The notes under the pieces are model-generated. The model did no database searches and had not been told where the DNA came from. It saw only the letters and a list, made by a program, of their open reading frames with translations. From assembly GCF_012027635.1 (NCBI RefSeq), contig NZ_SNUS01000001.1, forward strand, positions 1,488,001 to 1,552,000: 64,000 nucleotides of DNA, given 5' to 3'. Every line of letters begins with the position of its first letter. The first letter of the stretch is position 1. Both the position numbers and the translations under genes were made by a program. This stretch comes from Thermococcus sp. 21S9 (lineage in GTDB: Archaea; Methanobacteriota_B; Thermococci; Thermococcales; Thermococcaceae). Shown one piece after another: positions 18,635 through 60,396 of this stretch.

Positions 18635-19021
18635 TCAGCCGAATAGCTCTATGCAGACCCTGCACTCGGCGGGGTTCACCTCGGGGTCTATCCTGGCGTG
18701 GAAGGAGCAGACGTAACCCTTGCCGAGCATCTTGAGGGCTATGCCGATGAGCCTCATGTGAATGTCGTACTCGCTCGGCCGGAATTCAACTATCTCGTCC
18801 GCGAGGTTCTTGAGGTCCTCGTCAATCTCCCTGAACTTTGAAACGTCTACGAGAGCACCCCTGTCCATGTTGAGGTAGCGCGAAACCGCCGACTGGGTGA
18901 CGTGAAGAAGCTCCGCTATCTCGGTCTGCTTCAATCCCCTCTCCCGGAGGTGCTCCACGAGGCGTCTCCTGAGGGAGGGGTAAACGTAGCGGGATGCGAC
19001 CTCGAAGGCGTTGACCTTCAT
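18635..19021 (-). CDS. HTH transcriptional regulator with three C-terminal cysteines (COG2522-like)
   Basis: 128 residues. Residues 30-52 form a clear helix-turn-helix (LKQTEIAELLHVTQSAVSRYL). A helical middle is followed by a C-terminal CSFHAR...ECRVC segment with cysteines spaced C-x15-C-x2-C, a possible metal, Fe-S or redox/NO-sensing site. A TATA-like CCTTAAGTA (about 19046-19054) predicts a leaderless start at the ATG 19021. It is divergent from hcp, with the palindrome 19159-19172 in between. This makes it the best local candidate for the regulator of the ATGAC-N4-GTCAT regulon; that link is inference. Confidence 0.8.
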   Translation of the reverse strand: MKVNAFEVASRYVYPSLRRRLVEHLRERGLKQTEIAELLHVTQSAVSRYLNMDRGALVDVSKFREIDEDLKNLADEIVEFRPSEYDIHMRLIGIALKMLGKGYVCSFHARIDPEVNPAECRVCIELFG

Positions 19022-19131
19022 ATGCAAAACATGACCCGCGGAATACTTAAGGCTTTTGGTCCTTTTGAAAACTTAATCGGCTTATTTTTGTTGATTTGTA
19101 AACCAAGAGCTGGCCTTGTTCTGGATAAAAA

Positions 19132-19139
19132 ATTTAAAT
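19132..19139 (+). promoter_or_regulatory. TATA box of hcp
   Basis: ATTTAAAT preceded by an A-rich BRE-like stretch, about 26 nt before the centre of the palindrome at 19159-19172 and 55 nt before the hcp start codon. The predicted transcript start falls inside the palindrome. Confidence 0.55.
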
Positions 19140-19158
19140 CACTTACCATAACATTCAT

Positions 19159-19172
19159 ATGACAAGTGTCAT
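19159..19172. promoter_or_regulatory. Palindromic operator candidate at hcp
   Basis: ATGACAAGTGTCAT, a perfect 5-bp inverted repeat (ATGAC/GTCAT) around four bases. It overlaps the predicted transcription start of hcp, a position where a bound protein would block transcription. The same ATGAC-N4-GTCAT pattern occurs at 20636, 59115 and 59552, always in the same promoter position. Confidence 0.7.
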
Positions 19173-19191
19173 AATAAGGGGGTGTGGAAAG

Positions 19192-20565
19192 ATGGCCGTG
19201 AAGGTTCCGAACAGCGGAAAGGAAGCAGGCGTTCTGATGAGGTGCGACCAGTGTTCAATGAGCCTGCCGGGAGGGTGTACCTTCAGGGGAATCTGTGGCA
19301 AGGACCCTGACCTTAACTCCCTCCAGGAGGCCCTCATCTACGGAATAAAGGGAACCGCCGCCTACTATTATCACGCCTACGAGCTCGGCTACAGGGACGA
19401 TGAAATCGGCTTCTTCCTGTCAAAGGCCCTCTACTCAACGCTCACCAACGTGAACTTCGACAAGAACCGCTTCCTTGAGCTCATCCTCGAGAACGGCAGG
19501 ATACACCTCAAGGCTATGGAGCTTCTCGACAGGGCCTACACAGAGACCTACGGAAACCCGGAGCCGGTCAAGGTTCCGACCGGAACCGACGAGGGGCACG
19601 GAATTCTCGTCACCGGCCACACCTACAGGGCGCTCTACGAACTCCTCAAGCAGATTAGGGAGATGGGCCTCGAGGACCAGATTAGGGTCTACACACACTC
19701 CGAGATGCTCCCGGCCCATTCCTACCCGGAGTTCAGGAAGTTCAAGTCCCTCTACGGCAACTGGGGCGGTTCCTGGGTTTACCAGAGGAAGGAGTTCACC
19801 GAGTTCCCGGGAGCAATCCTCGGAACCAGCAACTGTGTCCAGCAACCACCGAAGAGCTACGCTGACAGGATTTTCACCACCGACATAGCGGGCCTTGAGG
19901 GCGTTCCCCACCTCGAGAACGACTACGAGCCCCTCATCAAGCGCGCGCTCGAGACGCCGAAGATGGAAAGGAAGGAGGACGGCTACATCGTCACCGGTTT
20001 CCACCACACCAACGTGCTCCCGCTCATGGACAAGCTCATCGAGCTGATAAACGAGGGCAAGATAAGGCACGTCTTCGTCATAGGTGGCTGTGACGTCCCC
20101 AACCCGAAGATGAGCTACTACGAGAAGCTCACCGCGATGGTGCCCGAAGATGCCATAATCCTCTCGGCCGCGTGCGGTAAGTTCCGCTACAACAGGCGCG
20201 ACTACGGCGAAATCGAGGGAATACCGCGCTTCATGGACTTTGGCCAGTGTAACAACGTCTACTCGATAATCCAGATTGCCGGGGCGCTCGCGAAGGAGCT
20301 GGACGTCGGTCTCAACGAGCTTCCGGTCAGCATAGTCCTCAGCTGGATGGAGCAGAAGGCCATTGGAATCCTCTACAGCCTGCTATACCTCGGAATCAAG
20401 GGCATCTACATTGGACCAAAGGCTCCGGAGTTCTTCACGCCGAACGTCTTCGAGACCCTCAGGAAGAAGTTCGACCTCAGGCTCATAAGCGAGCCCGAGA
20501 AGGACCTGAAGAGAATGCTCAACTCCACCACCGCTGTGAGCGAGGACTCGCCCCTTCTCGACTGA
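19192..20565 (+). CDS. hcp: Hydroxylamine reductase / hybrid cluster protein (class III)
   Basis: Hybrid cluster protein, a cytosolic Fe-S enzyme with hydroxylamine reductase and, in better-studied systems, NO reductase or S-nitrosylase activity; it is a marker of nitrosative stress. The N-terminal cluster motif is C18-x2-C21-x7-C29-x5-C35. Later residues typical of the hybrid Fe-S-O cluster are present (GHTYRALYEL, SNCVQQP, GGCDVPNP, SAACGKFR). At 457 residues it is short, as in class III enzymes that lack part of the N-terminal domain. The ATG at 19192 has GGGGGTGTGG upstream. A palindrome overlies its predicted transcription start. Confidence 0.93.
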   Translation: MAVKVPNSGKEAGVLMRCDQCSMSLPGGCTFRGICGKDPDLNSLQEALIYGIKGTAAYYYHAYELGYRDDEIGFFLSKALYSTLTNVNFDKNRFLELILENGRIHLKAMELLDRAYTETYGNPEPVKVPTGTDEGHGILVTGHTYRALYELLKQIREMGLEDQIRVYTHSEMLPAHSYPEFRKFKSLYGNWGGSWVYQRKEFTEFPGAILGTSNCVQQPPKSYADRIFTTDIAGLEGVPHLENDYEPLIKRALETPKMERKEDGYIVTGFHHTNVLPLMDKLIELINEGKIRHVFVIGGCDVPNPKMSYYEKLTAMVPEDAIILSAACGKFRYNRRDYGEIEGIPRFMDFGQCNNVYSIIQIAGALAKELDVGLNELPVSIVLSWMEQKAIGILYSLLYLGIKGIYIGPKAPEFFTPNVFETLRKKFDLRLISEPEKDLKRMLNSTTAVSEDSPLLD

Positions 20566-20619
20566 TTTCGTATTCTCCTTTTCTTCATGTTCTTCTGTAC
20601 ACATTTCTGCCCAGAAAGA

Positions 20620-20628
20620 CTTAAATAT
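20620..20628 (+). promoter_or_regulatory. TATA box of the DUF438 gene
   Basis: CTTAAATAT lies about 25 nt before the predicted transcript start and directly upstream of the palindrome at 20636-20649. Confidence 0.55.
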
Positions 20629-20635
20629 GTCCCTC

Positions 20636-20649
20636 ATGACATTTGTCAT
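20636..20649. promoter_or_regulatory. Palindromic operator candidate at the DUF438 gene
   Basis: ATGACATTTGTCAT, the second copy of ATGAC-N4-GTCAT, placed between the TATA box (20620-20628) and the ribosome binding site GGTGGT (20653-20658). Confidence 0.7.
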
Positions 20650-20661
20650 GAAGGTGGTATC

Positions 20662-22002
20662 ATGACCGAATTGCTCTCAAACCGCGGGCAGAAGAAGGAA
20701 GCCCTGAAGGCCCTTCTCCTCAGGATTCATAACGGTGAGGACGTTAATTCGCTCAAGGAGGAATTCCGGGCAGTTCTAAGCTCGATATCTCCCCTTGAGA
20801 TTCCAATCATCGAGCAGGAGCTCGTGAAGGAAGGCGTTTCCGCCAAGGACATCGCCAAGATGTGCGACCTTCACGTCGAGCTCTTCAGGGAGGCCGTGAA
20901 GGGAACGGACGAGGTTGAGGAGAAGGAACTTCCCGAGGGACATCCCCTCTGGGTTCGCTACATGGAGAACAGGGAAATCCTCAAGGACGCTGAGATGCTG
21001 AACCTCTACGCGAGAACCCTCGCAACGACGAGAGACGAGCGCATGAGAGAGGAAATCCTTGGAGTTCTGGAGGAGCTCGTGGGGAACCTCCGAAAGGTCG
21101 GCTTCACCCACTACAACCGCGACGAGATGCTGACGTTTCCCTACATTGAGAGGAGGGGTTTGACGGCCATAGCAACCGTTCTCTGGACGAAACACGACGA
21201 GATAAGGTTCATGCTAAAGCACCTTTACGGACTTCTGGCCCGGAGGGATGAGATGCCCTGGGAGGAGTTCGTGGAGCGCTTCAAAGCGAAAGCGGGCGAG
21301 ACATCCTTTGCGCTGAGCGATATGGTCTTCAGGGAGAACAACATCTACTATCCAACCCTCAAAGCCCTCCTCAGCGACGGCGAGTGGAAGGCTATACGAA
21401 TGCAGGACGACGAGATTGGTTACTACAAGGTGAACCCGCCTGTATGGGACCCCGGAGAGGACGTTAAACCTCTCCACCCCTGGCAAATTAACCCGGAGCT
21501 GAGCGCGGAGGAACTGCTAAGCCTTCCAAAGGAGGTTCAGCAGGCCCTTAGGGGCCAGCCCCTGGAGTTTGACAAAGGCCAGCTGAGGCGCGAGGGGGAC
21601 ATCGACCTCGGCACGGGCTTCGTGAGCGTCGAGGAGATTAAGGCGATATTCGAGGCCCTTCCCGTTGACGTTACCTTCATCGACAGGGACGACCGCGTTC
21701 GGTTCTTCTCCCCGGGCGAGAGGATATTCACGAGGACACCATCGATTCTCGGAAGGCCGGTCCAGCTCTGCCACCCTCCGAAGAGCGTTCACATCGTTAA
21801 CAAAATTCTGAGGGCCTTCAAGGAGGGCAGAAAAAGGGAGGCAACGTTCTGGCTCAGGCTTGGCCCGAAGTACGTCTACATCAAGTACGTGCCCCTCTTT
21901 GACAGGAACGGAAACTACCTAGGAACCCTTGAGATTACGATGGACATCGGAGAGTATAAGAGGATAGAGGGCGAGAAGAGACTGCTCGACTGGAGGGATT
22001 GA
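20662..22002 (+). CDS. DUF438 / hemerythrin / PAS protein
   Basis: 446-residue multidomain protein. Residues about 10-80 match DUF438. Residues about 110-250 form a helical hemerythrin-like (HHE) domain with scattered His and Glu ligands (GFTHYNRDEM, TKHDEIRFMLKHL, RENNIYYP), able to bind a diiron centre for O2 or NO. Residues about 325-446 are a PAS domain (LPVDVTFIDRDDRVRFFSPGER). No output domain is visible, so it may be a sensor or NO/O2 scavenger. It sits between hcp and the M24-fold gene; only 1 base separates it from the latter. Its promoter carries the ATGAC-N4-GTCAT palindrome, tying it to hcp. Confidence 0.88.
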   Translation: MTELLSNRGQKKEALKALLLRIHNGEDVNSLKEEFRAVLSSISPLEIPIIEQELVKEGVSAKDIAKMCDLHVELFREAVKGTDEVEEKELPEGHPLWVRYMENREILKDAEMLNLYARTLATTRDERMREEILGVLEELVGNLRKVGFTHYNRDEMLTFPYIERRGLTAIATVLWTKHDEIRFMLKHLYGLLARRDEMPWEEFVERFKAKAGETSFALSDMVFRENNIYYPTLKALLSDGEWKAIRMQDDEIGYYKVNPPVWDPGEDVKPLHPWQINPELSAEELLSLPKEVQQALRGQPLEFDKGQLRREGDIDLGTGFVSVEEIKAIFEALPVDVTFIDRDDRVRFFSPGERIFTRTPSILGRPVQLCHPPKSVHIVNKILRAFKEGRKREATFWLRLGPKYVYIKYVPLFDRNGNYLGTLEITMDIGEYKRIEGEKRLLDWRD

Positions 22003-22003
22003 G

Positions 22004-23080
22004 ATGCGCGGGGATGAGAGAATCTTTAAAAAACGGGTTGAGCGCTTTCAGGGGCTTTTGAGGGAGAAAGAGATAGACGGTGCCGTCATCAGGACGCTGT
22101 CCAGCTTCATATACTTCACAGGAACCAAGTGGCTCAGGCCGAGCCTGTTCATACCCGCTGAGGGAGAGCCGGTCGTTTTTGTCGTTAAGGGAGAGGCAAA
22201 GCTGTTCAAGGAGAGGAGCTGGGTTGAGAACGTTGTGGAATACCAGCGCGTTGAAGACCTCATGGCCGGTGTCGTCAGCTGGGTTCACAGGAACGGCATG
22301 GAGAGGGTCGGCCTCGAGTTCGGGGTCGAGAGGGACGCGTATCTCATCTTCCTCAAGCTCTTCCAGAGGCTCAACCCAACGGTGGAAGTTGTCGATGTGC
22401 TCGACCTCACGATGAGCCTGAGGATGATAAAGGACGAGTGGGAGCTTGACAACATCAGGAAGGCGGGGGAGATAGCACGGAAGGGAATGAAGGTGGCCGA
22501 GGAAGTCATAAAGCCCGGTGTCAGTGAGCTGGAGATAGCGGCGGAGGTAATGAGGGAGCTCATGCTCAGCGGAAGCGAGGAGCCCAAGGTGTACGTCTCA
22601 ACGACTCCAAGGGCCCACGCCGAGCCTTTCCGCGACCTGAAGGTTCCCGAGAACGGAGTCGTTACCGTCGTTATCGGAACCGACTGGAACCACTACTACG
22701 CCAACACCGCGAGGACTTTCATCGTTGGTGAACCCGGCGAGAGAGTTAAGAAGGCGATAGAAGTCAAGAGAGATGCCTACGAACTCGCCCTGCAGGAAAC
22801 GAGGGTTGGGGTTTCGCTGAACGCCGTTGAGAAGAAGCTGTTTACCTTTTTCCGGGAGAGGGGCTTTGAGGGCTCTTACATAGCCGGTTACACCCACGGC
22901 GTTGGCCTGCTCATCGAGGAACTCCCCATGCCGACGATAGTCGTGCCCACGAGGGCCGAAAAGGTCCGCGAGAACATGGTTCTGAGCGTTATCCACTCCC
23001 CGCTCATGATTCCGGAGGGAGCAATAAAGCACGAGGACACCTACATCGTCAAAAAGGATGGGTTGGAGAAGGTGACCTAA
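22004..23080 (+). CDS. M24-fold (prolidase/creatinase-like) protein with degenerate metal site
   Basis: 358 residues with the two-domain architecture of Xaa-Pro dipeptidases: an N-terminal creatinase-type domain (about 1-130) and a pita-bread C-terminal domain. Compared with prolidases, the first metal Asp is replaced in VVTVVIGTDW, the second Asp is Asn in NHYYANTART, and the Glu of the EPG motif is missing in VLSVIHSP. The His of YTHGVGL and the last Glu of KHEDTY remain. A dimetal peptidase activity is therefore unlikely; creatinase-like or regulatory roles are possible. It is translated one base after the DUF438 stop, so it belongs to that operon and probably to the palindrome-controlled regulon. 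Confidence 0.82.
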   Translation: MRGDERIFKKRVERFQGLLREKEIDGAVIRTLSSFIYFTGTKWLRPSLFIPAEGEPVVFVVKGEAKLFKERSWVENVVEYQRVEDLMAGVVSWVHRNGMERVGLEFGVERDAYLIFLKLFQRLNPTVEVVDVLDLTMSLRMIKDEWELDNIRKAGEIARKGMKVAEEVIKPGVSELEIAAEVMRELMLSGSEEPKVYVSTTPRAHAEPFRDLKVPENGVVTVVIGTDWNHYYANTARTFIVGEPGERVKKAIEVKRDAYELALQETRVGVSLNAVEKKLFTFFRERGFEGSYIAGYTHGVGLLIEELPMPTIVVPTRAEKVRENMVLSVIHSPLMIPEGAIKHEDTYIVKKDGLEKVT

Positions 23081-23538
23081 AACACCCTTGCGTAGCCCCA
23101 CTTCTTCACGCTCGTTAGGATTGAGGTTTCCGTGCTCTTTATCCCCTCTATTCTGCCGAGCTTTTCAACGAGGAAGTTCTCGAGTTCCTGCAAATCCCTC
23201 ACGGTTACCTGCATCAGTATGTCGTGGGCCCCGGTCGCTATGCCCAGGACGTCCACCTCGGGAAGCTCCTTCAACTTCTCAACGGCTTCCTTTATCTTGC
23301 TCGGTTCCACGTCAACGGCTATGAACGCCACAACTGAGTAGCCCGCCTTGAAGGGGTTTATGAGGGCGACGAACTTCCTTATGATTCCCCTCTCAACAAG
23401 CTTTTTAACCCTGAGCCTGACCGTTGATTCCGGCACCTTAAGCCTTCTCGCTATCTCCGAGTAGCTGGCCCTCCCGTCCTCCTGGAGGATGTGGAGTATC
23501 GCCCTGTCGAGTTCGTCAAGTCGTTCAATCTCAGCCAT
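23077..23538 (-). CDS. Lrp/AsnC-family transcriptional regulator
   Basis: 153 residues: an N-terminal helix-turn-helix (LDELDRAILHILQEDGRASYSEIARRL then STVRLRVKKL) and a C-terminal RAM/ACT-like effector domain (GIATGAHDILMQVTV). Family members sense amino acids. A minus-strand TATA-like CTTTAAAAATA at about 23571-23581 serves it. It is divergent from the class III aminotransferase gene (115-bp shared region), so it may control that gene and itself. It overlaps the convergent M24-fold gene by 4 bp. Confidence 0.92.
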   Translation of the reverse strand: MAEIERLDELDRAILHILQEDGRASYSEIARRLKVPESTVRLRVKKLVERGIIRKFVALINPFKAGYSVVAFIAVDVEPSKIKEAVEKLKELPEVDVLGIATGAHDILMQVTVRDLQELENFLVEKLGRIEGIKSTETSILTSVKKWGYARVF

Positions 23539-57184: not shown

Positions 57185-57499
57185 ATGATGGTAACAGGCA
57201 CCAAATCATCTGGAAGGGGCACATTCCTCTGGAGAATCAATCCCTTTGAGGTTATAGCTTCAATCTGGAAGGACGTCGTCGAGGGCTCCAAGGTCGCGGT
57301 TCCCCACGCCGTTGGCACCATGAAGACGAGCCACGGTTCAGTGGTGGAACTCGAACTCAGCGTGGTTCTCTACCCCTCGGAGAAGAGGCTCGTCGTGAAG
57401 GACGGTGATGAGGTGCACTTCCTGTTTCCGGTAAGCCCAGCCGAGGGCCCCGAGGGACTCTACGTTAAGCTGATAGAGGCTCTGGGGATGATAGCATGA
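57185..57499 (+). CDS. Conserved hypothetical protein
   Basis: 104 residues, soluble, with a beta-rich pattern (SVVELELSVVLYPSEKRLVVKDGDEVHFLFPV). No family recognised. GGTGAT lies five bases before the ATG. It overlaps the next gene by 4 bp and heads a three-gene unit ending in the ODP-like gene. Confidence 0.7.
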   Translation: MMVTGTKSSGRGTFLWRINPFEVIASIWKDVVEGSKVAVPHAVGTMKTSHGSVVELELSVVLYPSEKRLVVKDGDEVHFLFPVSPAEGPEGLYVKLIEALGMIA

Positions 57500-58290
57500 A
57501 GCGCAAGGAAGCCAGCGTTGAGATAAAGTCCGGTATGGAATCCGTTGAGGCCATACTCCACGACCCGGCACAGTTCATAACAAACTGGCCCTACGTGGTC
57601 AAGGTAAGGGGCAGAAATCCCGTCGTGGCCGAGATAATGCTACCCCGCTTCGTCTTCAAGTTCAGGGACACCTACGAGTTTGAGTTCCACGAAGACTACA
57701 ACAGCCACATCTACGAGGGAAGGGGAAAGAGGGGCAACCTGACGGTTGTGATAACCCTCAAGGAATGGCAGAAGTATGTTTCAGCAGACGTTGAGCTCTC
57801 CTACTCAGGTAGGGGCGAGTTCTTCCTCGGGAAGACCCTGGAGATACTCGTCGAGGGGATAGCCAGAAACCTCAAGGAGCTGGCGGAGGCTTCAAAGCCA
57901 CTCGAGGTCGGCAAGAAGACCGAAAAGGCCATACTCGAAGTGGATTTCTCCGACCCCATGAGCGTCGCCAACTTCTTAGCTAAGGCCAAGATGGTTCACA
58001 GCGGTCTACACGTCATCCCCGAGGGAGGCTTCTTCAACGTTCTCAACGAGATTCTTGAGAAGGCGGGCAGTGAGGTTCTCTACCTCTCGGGAATAACGTC
58101 CGATGGAACCAGCGGTTTCAAGGTGCTCGTTAGGGGCAGTCAGGTTCTGGCCGTTGAGTTAAGGAACGGAAGCGAGGTTAAGACCCTCAAGGTTGAGGGA
58201 GAGGACGGTGTTAGGGAAGCCGTTGAGCTCCTTTCAAAGGTTTCCGGGGCCTACATGGTGAACGCGTGGGTCCCCGCTGGAGGTGTTTGA
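57496..58290 (+). CDS. Protein with a START/SRPBCC-like N-terminal half
   Basis: 264 residues. Residues 1-130 have the curved-sheet pattern of SRPBCC/START-like ligand-binding domains (VEAILHDPAQFITNWPYVVKV ... VELSYSGRG); residues 140-264 form a second alpha/beta domain. Ligand unknown. Start overlaps the preceding gene (ATGA); the next gene begins 1 bp after its stop. Confidence 0.6.
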   Translation: MKRKEASVEIKSGMESVEAILHDPAQFITNWPYVVKVRGRNPVVAEIMLPRFVFKFRDTYEFEFHEDYNSHIYEGRGKRGNLTVVITLKEWQKYVSADVELSYSGRGEFFLGKTLEILVEGIARNLKELAEASKPLEVGKKTEKAILEVDFSDPMSVANFLAKAKMVHSGLHVIPEGGFFNVLNEILEKAGSEVLYLSGITSDGTSGFKVLVRGSQVLAVELRNGSEVKTLKVEGEDGVREAVELLSKVSGAYMVNAWVPAGGV

Positions 58291-58291
58291 G

Positions 58292-59065
58292 ATGATTAGG
58301 AACATGAACAGCTACCCGCTCTACGACGACGGGGAGCACAAGGTTTACTGGCTTGGAATTGAGGAGAGCGAGGACGAGAAGGGAATACTGACCAACCAGT
58401 ACCTCGTCATTGACGGAAACGAGGGCGCGCTTATAGAGCCCGGCGGGTTCTTCGTGTTCTCCCGCGTGCTCAAGAACGTCTCCTCCCTGATTCCCCCAAC
58501 ACAGATTAAGTACCTCATGTACTCGCACCAGGACCCCGACGTAGTTGCGGGTCTAAACCTCTGGTTCGAGTACGCGCCACTGGCGAAGGTCGTCATCTCG
58601 GAGCTGTGGGTGCGCTTCATTCCGCACCTTGCCGTAATGAGCGCGGGCAGAACGGTAGGAATCCCTGATAAGGGTGCCGAGTTCAAACTGGGAAACTCGA
58701 CCATAAGGGCAGTTCCAGCCCACTACCTCCACAGTCCCGGCAACTTCGCCTTCTACGACGAGAAGAGCGGAATCCTGTTCAGCTCGGACATTGGAGCCGC
58801 TGCATTCTCGAAGGACGAGTGGTACCTCTTCGTTGAGGACTTTGACGAGCACACAAAGCACATGGAGGGCTTCCATAAGAGGTATATGAGCTCAACGAAG
58901 GCCCTCAGGGCATGGGTCCGCTCGGTAAGGAAGCTTAAACCCAAGATGATAGCGCCACAGCACGGGGCGATATTCAGGGACGAGGACGTTGGCAGGTTCC
59001 TTGACTGGCTCGATTCGCTTGAGGTTGGAATCGACGCCTTCGAAGAGGAGTTCTACGGGGACTGA
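58292..59065 (+). CDS. Oxygen-binding diiron protein (ODP)-like / FDP-type beta-lactamase fold
   Basis: 257-residue metallo-beta-lactamase-fold protein related to flavodiiron proteins but lacking the flavodoxin domain. Ligand motifs for a diiron site are present: SHQDPD, HYLHSPGN, SSDIG and PQHG. ODP-type proteins bind O2, and flavodiiron relatives reduce O2 or NO. GGAGGTG lies six bases before ATG 58292. It is followed closely by the two small palindrome-controlled membrane proteins, which strengthens an O2/NO-response role. Confidence 0.85.
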   Translation: MIRNMNSYPLYDDGEHKVYWLGIEESEDEKGILTNQYLVIDGNEGALIEPGGFFVFSRVLKNVSSLIPPTQIKYLMYSHQDPDVVAGLNLWFEYAPLAKVVISELWVRFIPHLAVMSAGRTVGIPDKGAEFKLGNSTIRAVPAHYLHSPGNFAFYDEKSGILFSSDIGAAAFSKDEWYLFVEDFDEHTKHMEGFHKRYMSSTKALRAWVRSVRKLKPKMIAPQHGAIFRDEDVGRFLDWLDSLEVGIDAFEEEFYGD

Positions 59066-59114
59066 GTTCCCCCAACCTTTGGTTTTAAATGAAAATTTTT
59101 CAAAGTGCTTTTAA

Positions 59115-59128
59115 ATGACGTACGTCAT
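59115..59128. promoter_or_regulatory. Palindromic operator candidate at small membrane gene 1
   Basis: ATGACGTACGTCAT, here a fully symmetrical 14-bp palindrome, immediately after the TATA-like CTTTTAAAT (59108-59116) and 19 bp before the start codon. Third copy of ATGAC-N4-GTCAT. Confidence 0.7.
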
Positions 59129-59146
59129 CTAATCCCCGGTGGTCCC

Positions 59147-59440
59147 ATGAACCCGATGGAGAAGGCGTTCGAAGAGGCTATGAAAAACCCCAAACTCCGG
59201 AAGAAACTGCGAGTGAAGGCCTTCCTCTCGCTCCTGCTCCTCGTAGGGTTCCTTGGAGTGGTCTTCATAACAATCGGAACAATAATCGCGAGCAAGAACG
59301 GAACGTTCCTTGGAATGACTCACCTGGACTTTCTCAAGCTACGCGCCCGCTACGGTCTCTTCATGATGACCCTGATAACAATACACATAATCATGAACAG
59401 GAGCATAATGCGGAGGGAGTTGCGACTCCTCTTTGGCTGA
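59147..59440 (+). CDS. Small two-helix membrane protein (DUF4405/b561-like), copy 1
   Basis: 97 residues, two membrane helices (about 25-50 and 68-87) ending in RYGLFMMTLITIHIIMN. The pattern [HR]YG-x2-M-x2-LI-x-IH is shared with the next gene; the helix histidine could ligate heme. ATG 59147 follows GGTGGT. Promoter carries the palindrome. Confidence 0.72.
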   Translation: MNPMEKAFEEAMKNPKLRKKLRVKAFLSLLLLVGFLGVVFITIGTIIASKNGTFLGMTHLDFLKLRARYGLFMMTLITIHIIMNRSIMRRELRLLFG

Positions 59441-59551
59441 TTCGTTTAATTTTTATCAAACTTCATACGTTTTTTGAGGAGCACTTGACATCAAGCCAGT
59501 GATTGGTTAACAAGAAAACACTTTCCTTTTACAAAAGATTTTTAAAAGTCC

Positions 59552-59565
59552 ATGACACTCGTCAT
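59552..59565. promoter_or_regulatory. Palindromic operator candidate at small membrane gene 2
   Basis: ATGACACTCGTCAT, fourth copy of ATGAC-N4-GTCAT, just downstream of TTTTTAAAAG (59539-59548) and before GGTGGT (59570-59575). Confidence 0.7.
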
Positions 59566-59579
59566 AACCGGTGGTAGAG

Positions 59580-59837
59580 ATGGCAGGAAACGGAAAGAGA
59601 ATAGTCAAGACGAAGGCAATAATATCGTCGATACTGATAGCCCTCTACGTCGGAGCAGTGTTTCTGACGATATCGAGCGCAATCGCCGCACACAGGGGAA
59701 GCTTCCTCGGCGAGCCCGCTAAGAAACTCCTCCAGCTCCACGTGCACTACGGAATGGTCATGCTGGCCCTCATAGCAATCCACCTGTACCTGAACTGGGG
59801 AATGTTCAAGAACGAGCTGAAGGTTCTCAGGTCTTAA
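59580..59837 (+). CDS. Small two-helix membrane protein (DUF4405/b561-like), copy 2
   Basis: 85 residues, paralogue of the preceding gene: two helices (about 12-36 and 55-75), with HVHYGMVMLALIAIHLYLN containing three histidines suited to heme ligation. Both copies have their own palindrome, so they are separate transcription units under one regulator. Its stop overlaps the maturation protease gene by 4 bp. Confidence 0.72.
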   Translation: MAGNGKRIVKTKAIISSILIALYVGAVFLTISSAIAAHRGSFLGEPAKKLLQLHVHYGMVMLALIAIHLYLNWGMFKNELKVLRS

Positions 59838-60286
59838 TCCCCCGCTACAATTTTTTCGATGAGCTCAACAGCTTTGGGAACGGCTTTTTTGACCTCCTCG
59901 CTGAGCTCGGTTCCGAGGTCAATCTCCTTCGCAACTATCCCAACGAAGTGAACCTCCGCCTTAGCGAGCCTCTCGTCGAGCTTCATGAGAAGCTTAAGGC
60001 CGTCTATCGCCCCCATGAAGTGCGCGCTCCTTATCTCGGCCCTTAGCTTCTCGAAGACATCCTCCCCTTTGAGGTGTATAACTTCTCCCGGCTTGAAAGT
60101 CTCGCTTAGAATCGCGTCAACGATTATAATCCTCTCCTCGCCGTTGTAGTGGCTTGATAGCATGAAGATGTCGGTTCCAACCTCAAGGACGTTGTAGCCC
60201 TTCTCGGCGAGGATTCTGCCAACCTTGAGCCCAACCCCGTCGTCCTTCATCAGCTCGTTTCCAAGGGCAAGTATGAGCGTTCTCAT
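59834..60286 (-). CDS. Hydrogenase maturation protease (HycI/HyaD family)
   Basis: 150 residues. These endopeptidases remove the C-terminal tail of the NiFe-hydrogenase large subunit after metal insertion. The N-terminal LALGNELMKDDGVG loop includes the conserved acidic nickel-sensing residue, and VDAILSET holds another. The neighbouring hydA ends in DPCISCSVH plus a short tail, the expected substrate. ATG at 60286 with GGAGAGGAG upstream. Confidence 0.88.
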   Translation of the reverse strand: MRTLILALGNELMKDDGVGLKVGRILAEKGYNVLEVGTDIFMLSSHYNGEERIIIVDAILSETFKPGEVIHLKGEDVFEKLRAEIRSAHFMGAIDGLKLLMKLDERLAKAEVHFVGIVAKEIDLGTELSEEVKKAVPKAVELIEKIVAGD

Positions 60287-60396
60287 CTCCTCTCCCCGCA
60301 TTAATTGCCACAGGGGTTTATGAGTCTTATCGAAACCCTTATATACTCTTTGCAGTAGTTACAATCGTCTCAAAATGAAAAGGGAGGGATGTTCCG

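Follow-up and report, generated by a model that had tools for sequence, protein, structure and literature searches.

In bacteria, the gene of the hybrid cluster protein, hcp, is placed under the control of HcpR, NsrR, NorR, DNR, or NarP, and the section on hcp in the same study names no regulator for archaeal hcp (PMC1274295). Reduction of NO is given as the likeliest role of the protein (PMC13056359). HcpR, a CRP/FNR-type regulator of anaerobic bacteria, resembles the system described below in controlling hcp and NO-related genes via a palindromic operator, and its gene often adjoins hcp, as does the gene of our candidate regulator (PMC1274295). NsrR, an Rrf2-family regulator with an Fe-S NO sensor, governs hcp and NO detoxification in the manner of a repressor (PMC1274295, PMC4432287).

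Here, we analyze a window of 64,000 nucleotides from Thermococcus sp. 21S9 together with genomes of the same family. The palindrome ATGACRNNYGTCAT is probably the operator of an autoregulated NO/O2-defence repressor regulon in Thermococcaceae, bound by a 128-aa helix-turn-helix (HTH) protein. The sequence supports this reading by the conservation of the site, the set of its targets, the copy in the promoter of the regulator, the link between the site and the regulator gene, and invariant cysteine and histidine residues in the regulator.

Operator Copies in the Window and the Genome

The preliminary description had located one palindrome upstream of hcp and another upstream of the DUF438-hemerythrin-PAS gene, each preceded by a TATA box. 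Both palindromes (19159–19172 and 20636–20649) were confirmed by sequence inspection, and TATA-like boxes are seen upstream of them (19133–19140 and 20620–20627). The claim that the arms are identical holds as well; the accompanying claim that the central four bases differ does not, as the arms of the two copies agree over six bases (ATGACA/TGTCAT) and the differences are confined to the central two. The likely gene starts are 19192 for hcp and 20662 for DUF438. The features of the window are collected in Table 1.

Table 1. Sites, promoter elements, and genes of the proposed regulon in the window.
Feature	Position	Strand	Basis
Candidate regulator, 128-aa HTH protein, divergent from hcp	18635..19021	-	Pfam HTH_3, HTH_5 above cut-off
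Half-degenerate operator ATTCCGCGGGTCAT, regulator promoter, adjoining/overlapping TATA box	19031..19044	-	
TATA-like box of hcp, TTTAAATC	19133..19140	+	By eye; distance 26 to site
Operator ATGACAAGTGTCAT 5' of hcp	19159..19172	.	Sequence inspection, pattern scan
hcp, class III-size hybrid cluster protein, proposed target	19192..20565	+	NCBIfam TIGR01703, 642 bits, above cut-off
TATA-like box of DUF438, CTTAAATA	20620..20627	+	By eye; distance 16 to site
Operator ATGACATTTGTCAT 5' of DUF438-hemerythrin-PAS gene	20636..20649	.	Sequence inspection, pattern scan
DUF438-hemerythrin-PAS gene, proposed target	20662..22002	+	Pfam
M24/creatinase-fold gene directly 3' of DUF438	22004..23080	+	Pfam
ODP-family metallo-beta-lactamase-fold gene adjoining sites 59115 and 59552	58283..59065	+	PF19583, 254.9 bits
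Operator-like site ATGACGTACGTCAT, overlapping TATA-like box	59115..59128	.	Pattern scan
Small membrane-protein gene 1, probable target	59147..59440	+	No Pfam match above cut-off
Operator-like site ATGACACTCGTCAT	59552..59565	.	Pattern scan
Small DUF4405/cytochrome b561-like membrane-protein gene 2, probable target	59580..59837	+	

Exact copies of ATGACNNNNGTCAT occur four times in the window (at 19159, 20636, 59115, and 59552), each a short distance 5' of a gene start and overlapping or downstream of a TATA-like box. The 1.92-Mb genome contains five copies, four of them in the window, vs. none for the reversed control. The fifth copy, at genome position 84965, is situated within an ORF and was rejected as an operator, as was the ORF-internal one-mismatch site at 1602115. 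The stricter pattern ATGACANNTGTCAT is found in this genome only at the two reported places (19159 and 20636). Two-mismatch sites number 29; the reversed control yields 8 sites with up to two mismatches.

Conservation of the Site in the Family

The strict pattern ATGACANNTGTCAT is present in 62 of 94 family genomes and the reversed control in one of them. The consensus palindrome across the family is ATGACRNNYGTCAT. Promoter regions, spanning 220 bases ahead of each gene and its first 30 bases, were scanned with ATGACRNNYGTCAT and five control patterns; tblastn matches covering less than 60% of the query (small membrane proteins exempt), matches whose first aligned query residue lay past 25, and genes with less than 100 bases of upstream sequence were left out. 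Fragments of hcp in G045, G068, G069, and G090 and of DUF438 in several incomplete genomes were not counted. Among 47 genomes with 100 or more upstream bases, 45 have an exact site before hcp, and the control patterns do not match there even with one mismatch. A recount limited to 60 bases ahead of the predicted start, with tolerance for mispredicted starts, gave 46 of 48 genomes, the exceptions being G076 (one mismatch) and G072 (two mismatches); G051, with an exact site and 49 bases of upstream sequence, is among the 48 hcp genes and outside the 47. For the DUF438-hemerythrin genes, the exact site is found in 50 of 67 genomes. None of the five controls has an exact match before any class of genes scanned, and the swapped-arm control matches with one mismatch before 4/67 DUF438, 2/69 regulator, and 1/17 'odp' genes. 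The information content of the operator arms has no value as proof, being a product of selection, as exact sites alone were aligned.

These counts and controls (46/48 for hcp and 50/67 for DUF438) support the original proposal that the palindrome is the operator of an hcp and DUF438 regulon. The preliminary description had named two findings that would speak against it, namely, absence of the motif from the hcp promoters of relatives and its occurrence at background frequency; the motif is exact in 46 of 48 such promoters, and the five controls give zero exact matches. A chance word or a dispersed repeat might be suspected, given that ATGA and TCAT are common around start codons, but the excess over the control (62/94 vs. 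1/94), the zero exact control matches before the scanned genes, and the flanks, which vary between different targets while the position of the site is kept, reduce this explanation to a negligible probability, and we consider both variants ruled out by the control patterns.

A scan of named genome contigs returned four loci, three in Thermococcus MAGs and one weak match in Halosimplex. Outside the family, the site was found in 3 of 21 genomes vs. 5 of 21 for the control, hence the operator is at background there.

Position of the Site within Promoters

The distance from the start of the TATA-like box to the site is 34–38 bases for 38 of 45 hcp genes and 26 bases for four, including the one in this genome (by eye); for DUF438 it is 16 bases in 44 of 50 cases, again including this genome. 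In archaea, repressor sites usually overlap the TATA box or lie 3' of it, with activator sites usually upstream of BRE/TATA. The location near the expected transcription start or on the TATA box thus favours repression, judging by general knowledge of archaeal promoters.

Two further elements were observed in relatives. The first is a second palindrome, TGGRCA-N4-TGYCCA, in promoters of DUF438 and flavodiiron genes, mostly ending 22 bases 5' of the operator. Its six-base arms (TGGGCA-N4-TGCCCA, or the matched variants TGGACA/TGTCCA) are fully symmetric in 28 of 65 promoters, six of these with the matched variants; the counts are descriptive only since the script preselected TGG- or CCA-like words. 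At the DUF438 promoter of the window, the near half alone is left (TGCCCA, 20608–20613), and the single one-mismatch match elsewhere is at chance level. This element is possibly an activator site. The second is a further one-mismatch operator copy, ATGACATAAGTCAT, situated roughly 80 bases away from the site of hcp on the regulator side in many relatives (e.g., L013 1423); a copy of this type is absent from the regulator–hcp intergenic region of this window.

The HTH protein might instead act at the same sites as an activator or a dual regulator. Archaeal regulators are generally known to act both ways depending on position, and the second upstream element shows that these promoters receive more than one input; the sites, however, overlap the TATA box or follow it, the usual position for repressors, and we consider repression to be the better reading and activation or dual control unlikely.

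Candidate Regulator: Distribution and Own Promoter

Strong orthologues of the candidate regulator are present in 69 of 94 genomes, and in 44 genomes the regulator gene and hcp are divergent neighbours within 700 bases. Almost all strict ATGACANNTGTCAT sites in the family (108/109) occur in genomes with an orthologue. By genome, the regulator and the strict site are both present in 61 cases, the regulator only in 8, the site only in 1, and neither in 24 (Fisher p = 1.6e-14; p values are only indicative, because the genomes are related). The site-only genome is G051, where the site is 18 bases from a contig end and the divergent regulator gene may therefore simply be missing. The relaxed site is found in 68 of 69 genomes with the regulator vs. 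6 of 25 others, the latter being G051 and G065 (contig edges), G081 (79% complete), and G019, G042, and G062 (one each). Conversely, G072 has the regulator and no exact site.

The promoter of the regulator gene carries its own version of the operator. A TTTAAATATTCCRNNYGTCAT-like sequence, identified with a regular expression, precedes 63 of 69 regulator genes; one arm is full, and the other is degenerate and merged with the TATA box. Judged by eye, four more promoters (G005, G007, G009, and G063) also match, their spacing differing slightly, and two (G028 and G049) do not; in G028, the regulator gene immediately follows TusA-DUF1858 in the same orientation. The count of exact sites upstream of regulator genes (41/69) was left aside, as it mostly reflects the intergenic region common to hcp. 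In most cases (52/63), the left arm reads ATTCC opposite GTCAT. The latter observation bears on the possibility that the palindrome forms an RNA hairpin in the 5' leader, an idea in line with the complementary arms and the position before the start codon. In the usual site of the regulator gene complementarity is lost with no compensating change, and this site overlaps the TATA box and so would not be transcribed whole; we therefore rejected the hairpin, which has only a very small probability.

The regulator gene could also be merely one more target of some other DNA-binding protein, as it carries a copy of the site and hence would look like a target in either case. Against this, the presence of sites follows the HTH gene (61/8/1/24), and the one other local regulator compared, the Lrp-type gene at 23077–23538, does not follow the sites: it occurs in 67 of 94 genomes and shows no clear association (56/11/18/9 in the same order, p = 0.09), so we rejected it as the binder on the basis of distribution. 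We regard a different binder as quite unlikely, and binding of the operator by the 128-aa HTH protein as likely, judging from sequence comparisons.

Sequence and Structure of the Regulator

Four residues of the C-terminal pattern C-x2-H-x11-C-x2-C (C105, H108, C120, and C123) are invariant in all 69 orthologues, as are Q43, A45, V46, S47, R48, and Y49 in the HTH region. The AlphaFold2 model (mean pLDDT 90.7, pTM 0.85) is all helical. Sequence and fold searches of PDB yielded HTH-level matches only (Foldseek best E 1.7; VIA-align Z at most 4.2), giving no evidence of a new fold. The HTH half is 32% identical over 97 residues to an HTH-ThiN protein (L322:631-1518; E 8e-13 in a single comparison). 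The ThiN domain is present in the relatives in L322 and L324 and, according to the Pfam scan, absent from the 128-aa regulator, which matches instead the HTH plus CxxH..CxxC pattern of stand-alone proteins in L323–L325, as seen from sequences and profile matches.

In further families of the class, the CxxH..CxxC tail is present in some of the stand-alone relatives and HTH-ThiN proteins and missing from others; at nine loci with such relatives, the operator is absent even with one mismatch. As some such tails occur in the wider family beside quite different neighbours, the cysteine site could be a structural zinc site and not a sensor. Two of the stand-alone relatives with the tail (L324 5590-5982 and L325 6514-6900) have neighbours resembling, by eye, quinolinate synthase and a cysteine-desulfurase-like enzyme, and are possibly other Fe-S-linked regulators.

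Other Members of the Proposed Regulon

Most exceptions among the DUF438 genes have a common arrangement. Sixteen of the 17 site-less genes begin about 4–15 bases from where a flavodiiron gene match ends, and the flavodiiron genes for which upstream sequence is available have an exact site in 15 of 15 cases, starting 26–28 bases before the gene; the sixteenth (G003) begins at a contig end and has no upstream sequence. In the flavodiiron protein, ODP and flavodoxin domains were identified; its best NCBIfam match, the anaerobic nitric oxide reductase flavorubredoxin, scores 264 bits and stays under the cut-off of 635. This genome has no close orthologue of the relatives' flavodiiron protein, the best match being 31% identical. 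The seventeenth exception, G017, has no regulator orthologue, and its DUF438 promoter retains a TATA-like box and a ribosome site while the palindrome is gone; this is one natural case and does not amount to a statistic. In addition, fragments of the regulator (G027, G082, and G011) or of DUF438 (G019) were found in genomes without strict sites, which suggests joint decay of the regulator and its targets.

The TusA-DUF1858 gene of relatives, absent from this genome, is divergent from the DUF438 or the flavodiiron gene. An exact site is located within 220 bases in all 53 cases, in the region common to the partner gene. A proximal site of its own has at most one mismatch in 50 of 53 cases and is exact in only seven.

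The M24 gene had also been included in the regulon. It has no site of its own in any of 56 cases and would join the regulon only through its place immediately after DUF438, with which it is probably co-transcribed.

Exact sites precede small membrane-protein gene 1 also in G025 and G005 (3/41 in all) and gene 2 also in G022. With 3/41 and 3/46 exact sites, the genes being partly the same, these small membrane proteins are targets in few genomes only. The DUF4405 match of gene 2 (22.2 bits) is below the cut-off of 26.7. The two genes are situated between the ODP-family gene and a gene for a HycI-type hydrogenase maturation protease (57185–60301 of the window). No own site was found for the ODP gene of the window, and the site is absent from two ODP orthologues at 99–100% identity and one at 86%; the 14/17 exact count recorded under 'odp' stems from shared regions and flavodiiron genes rather than from orthologues of ODP.

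Single sites were observed in other contexts. In G009, an exact site (L100 3199) is 5' of a ferritin-like gene with EncFtn-like and rubrerythrin matches, divergent from a gene that by eye resembles a hydrogenase maturation protease. Exact sites in G005 and G007 (L093 3057 and L097 2689) follow a gene that looks MTAP-like by eye, and no target gene is apparent for them.

Proposed Mechanism and Signal

For the mechanism, we infer binding, dimer formation, repression, a metal centre, and the signal as follows. The 128-aa HTH protein would bind ATGACRNNYGTCAT as a dimer and block TBP/TFB or RNA polymerase; as the sites either coincide with the TATA box or follow it closely, in the region where transcription should start, a bound protein should block initiation. 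Via the weaker, half-degenerate site it would damp its own gene. The C-x2-H-x11-C-x2-C residues would hold a metal or Fe-S centre, whose reaction with NO, O2, or products of these would release the DNA and induce hcp and the DUF438-hemerythrin gene (plus M24) and, in relatives, also the NorV-like flavodiiron and TusA-DUF1858 proteins. The notion of an Fe-S cluster as the NO sensor is modelled on NsrR.

The targets, Hcp, the NorV-like flavodiiron protein, and hemerythrin, make NO the likeliest signal, with O2 or redox stress as alternatives. That the regulon senses something other than NO, such as O2, peroxide, hydroxylamine, or the iron or sulfur state, is a serious, if lesser, possibility: flavodiiron, ODP, and hemerythrin domains also occur in O2 and iron proteins, and the ferritin-like gene of G009 carries a site. 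On the other hand, NO is favoured by the presence of hcp, by a flavodiiron protein that most resembles NorV, and by the likeliest role assigned to Hcp (PMC13056359).

Comparison with Known Systems

Bacterial NO-defence regulons are well known; here, a concrete operator and a candidate regulator are proposed for an archaeal hcp. The possible sensor site of the regulator and the list of its targets are directly testable in cultured Thermococcales, and the regulon provides functional leads for DUF438, DUF1858, and DUF4405-like proteins. It suggests that a dedicated NO/O2 response is kept in anaerobic hyperthermophiles. No literature on the motif or the regulator was found in a search of titles and abstract starts, with most subscription journals outside its scope, and an earlier description is possible.

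SurR is a regulator of the ArsR type with the operator GTTn3AAC. Like our candidate, SurR (PF0095) is a redox-responsive regulator of Thermococcales; it differs in gene, family, and targets, which are hydrogen and sulfur genes (PMC6316755). The operators of HcpR, WTGTGAnnnnnnTCACAW or GTAACnnnnGTTAC, are different from ATGACRNNYGTCAT (PMC1274295), and the Pfam scan of the candidate regulator gives HTH families only, with no CRP/FNR-type domains. NsrR differs in fold class and operator, and no Rrf2 match was obtained for the regulator at E 0.001 in the Pfam scan; the Fe-S cluster of NsrR reacts with NO, and in the regulator described here an invariant C-x2-H-x11-C-x2-C is seen. The proposed system operates in the manner of the bacterial regulons; as its regulator belongs to another family, we do not file it under HcpR, NsrR, or the others. 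The HTH-ThiN proteins (ThiR) have a related HTH half, and some of them elsewhere keep CxxH..CxxC; their targets are thiamine genes, in contrast to the NO/O2-defence genes proposed as targets here. There is about an even chance that the stand-alone relative of the HTH-ThiN HTH half, with its labile metal or Fe-S tail, its Hcp/NorV-like/DUF438-hemerythrin/TusA-DUF1858 regulon, and the input from a second palindrome, represents an undescribed class of archaeal NO/O2 sensors.
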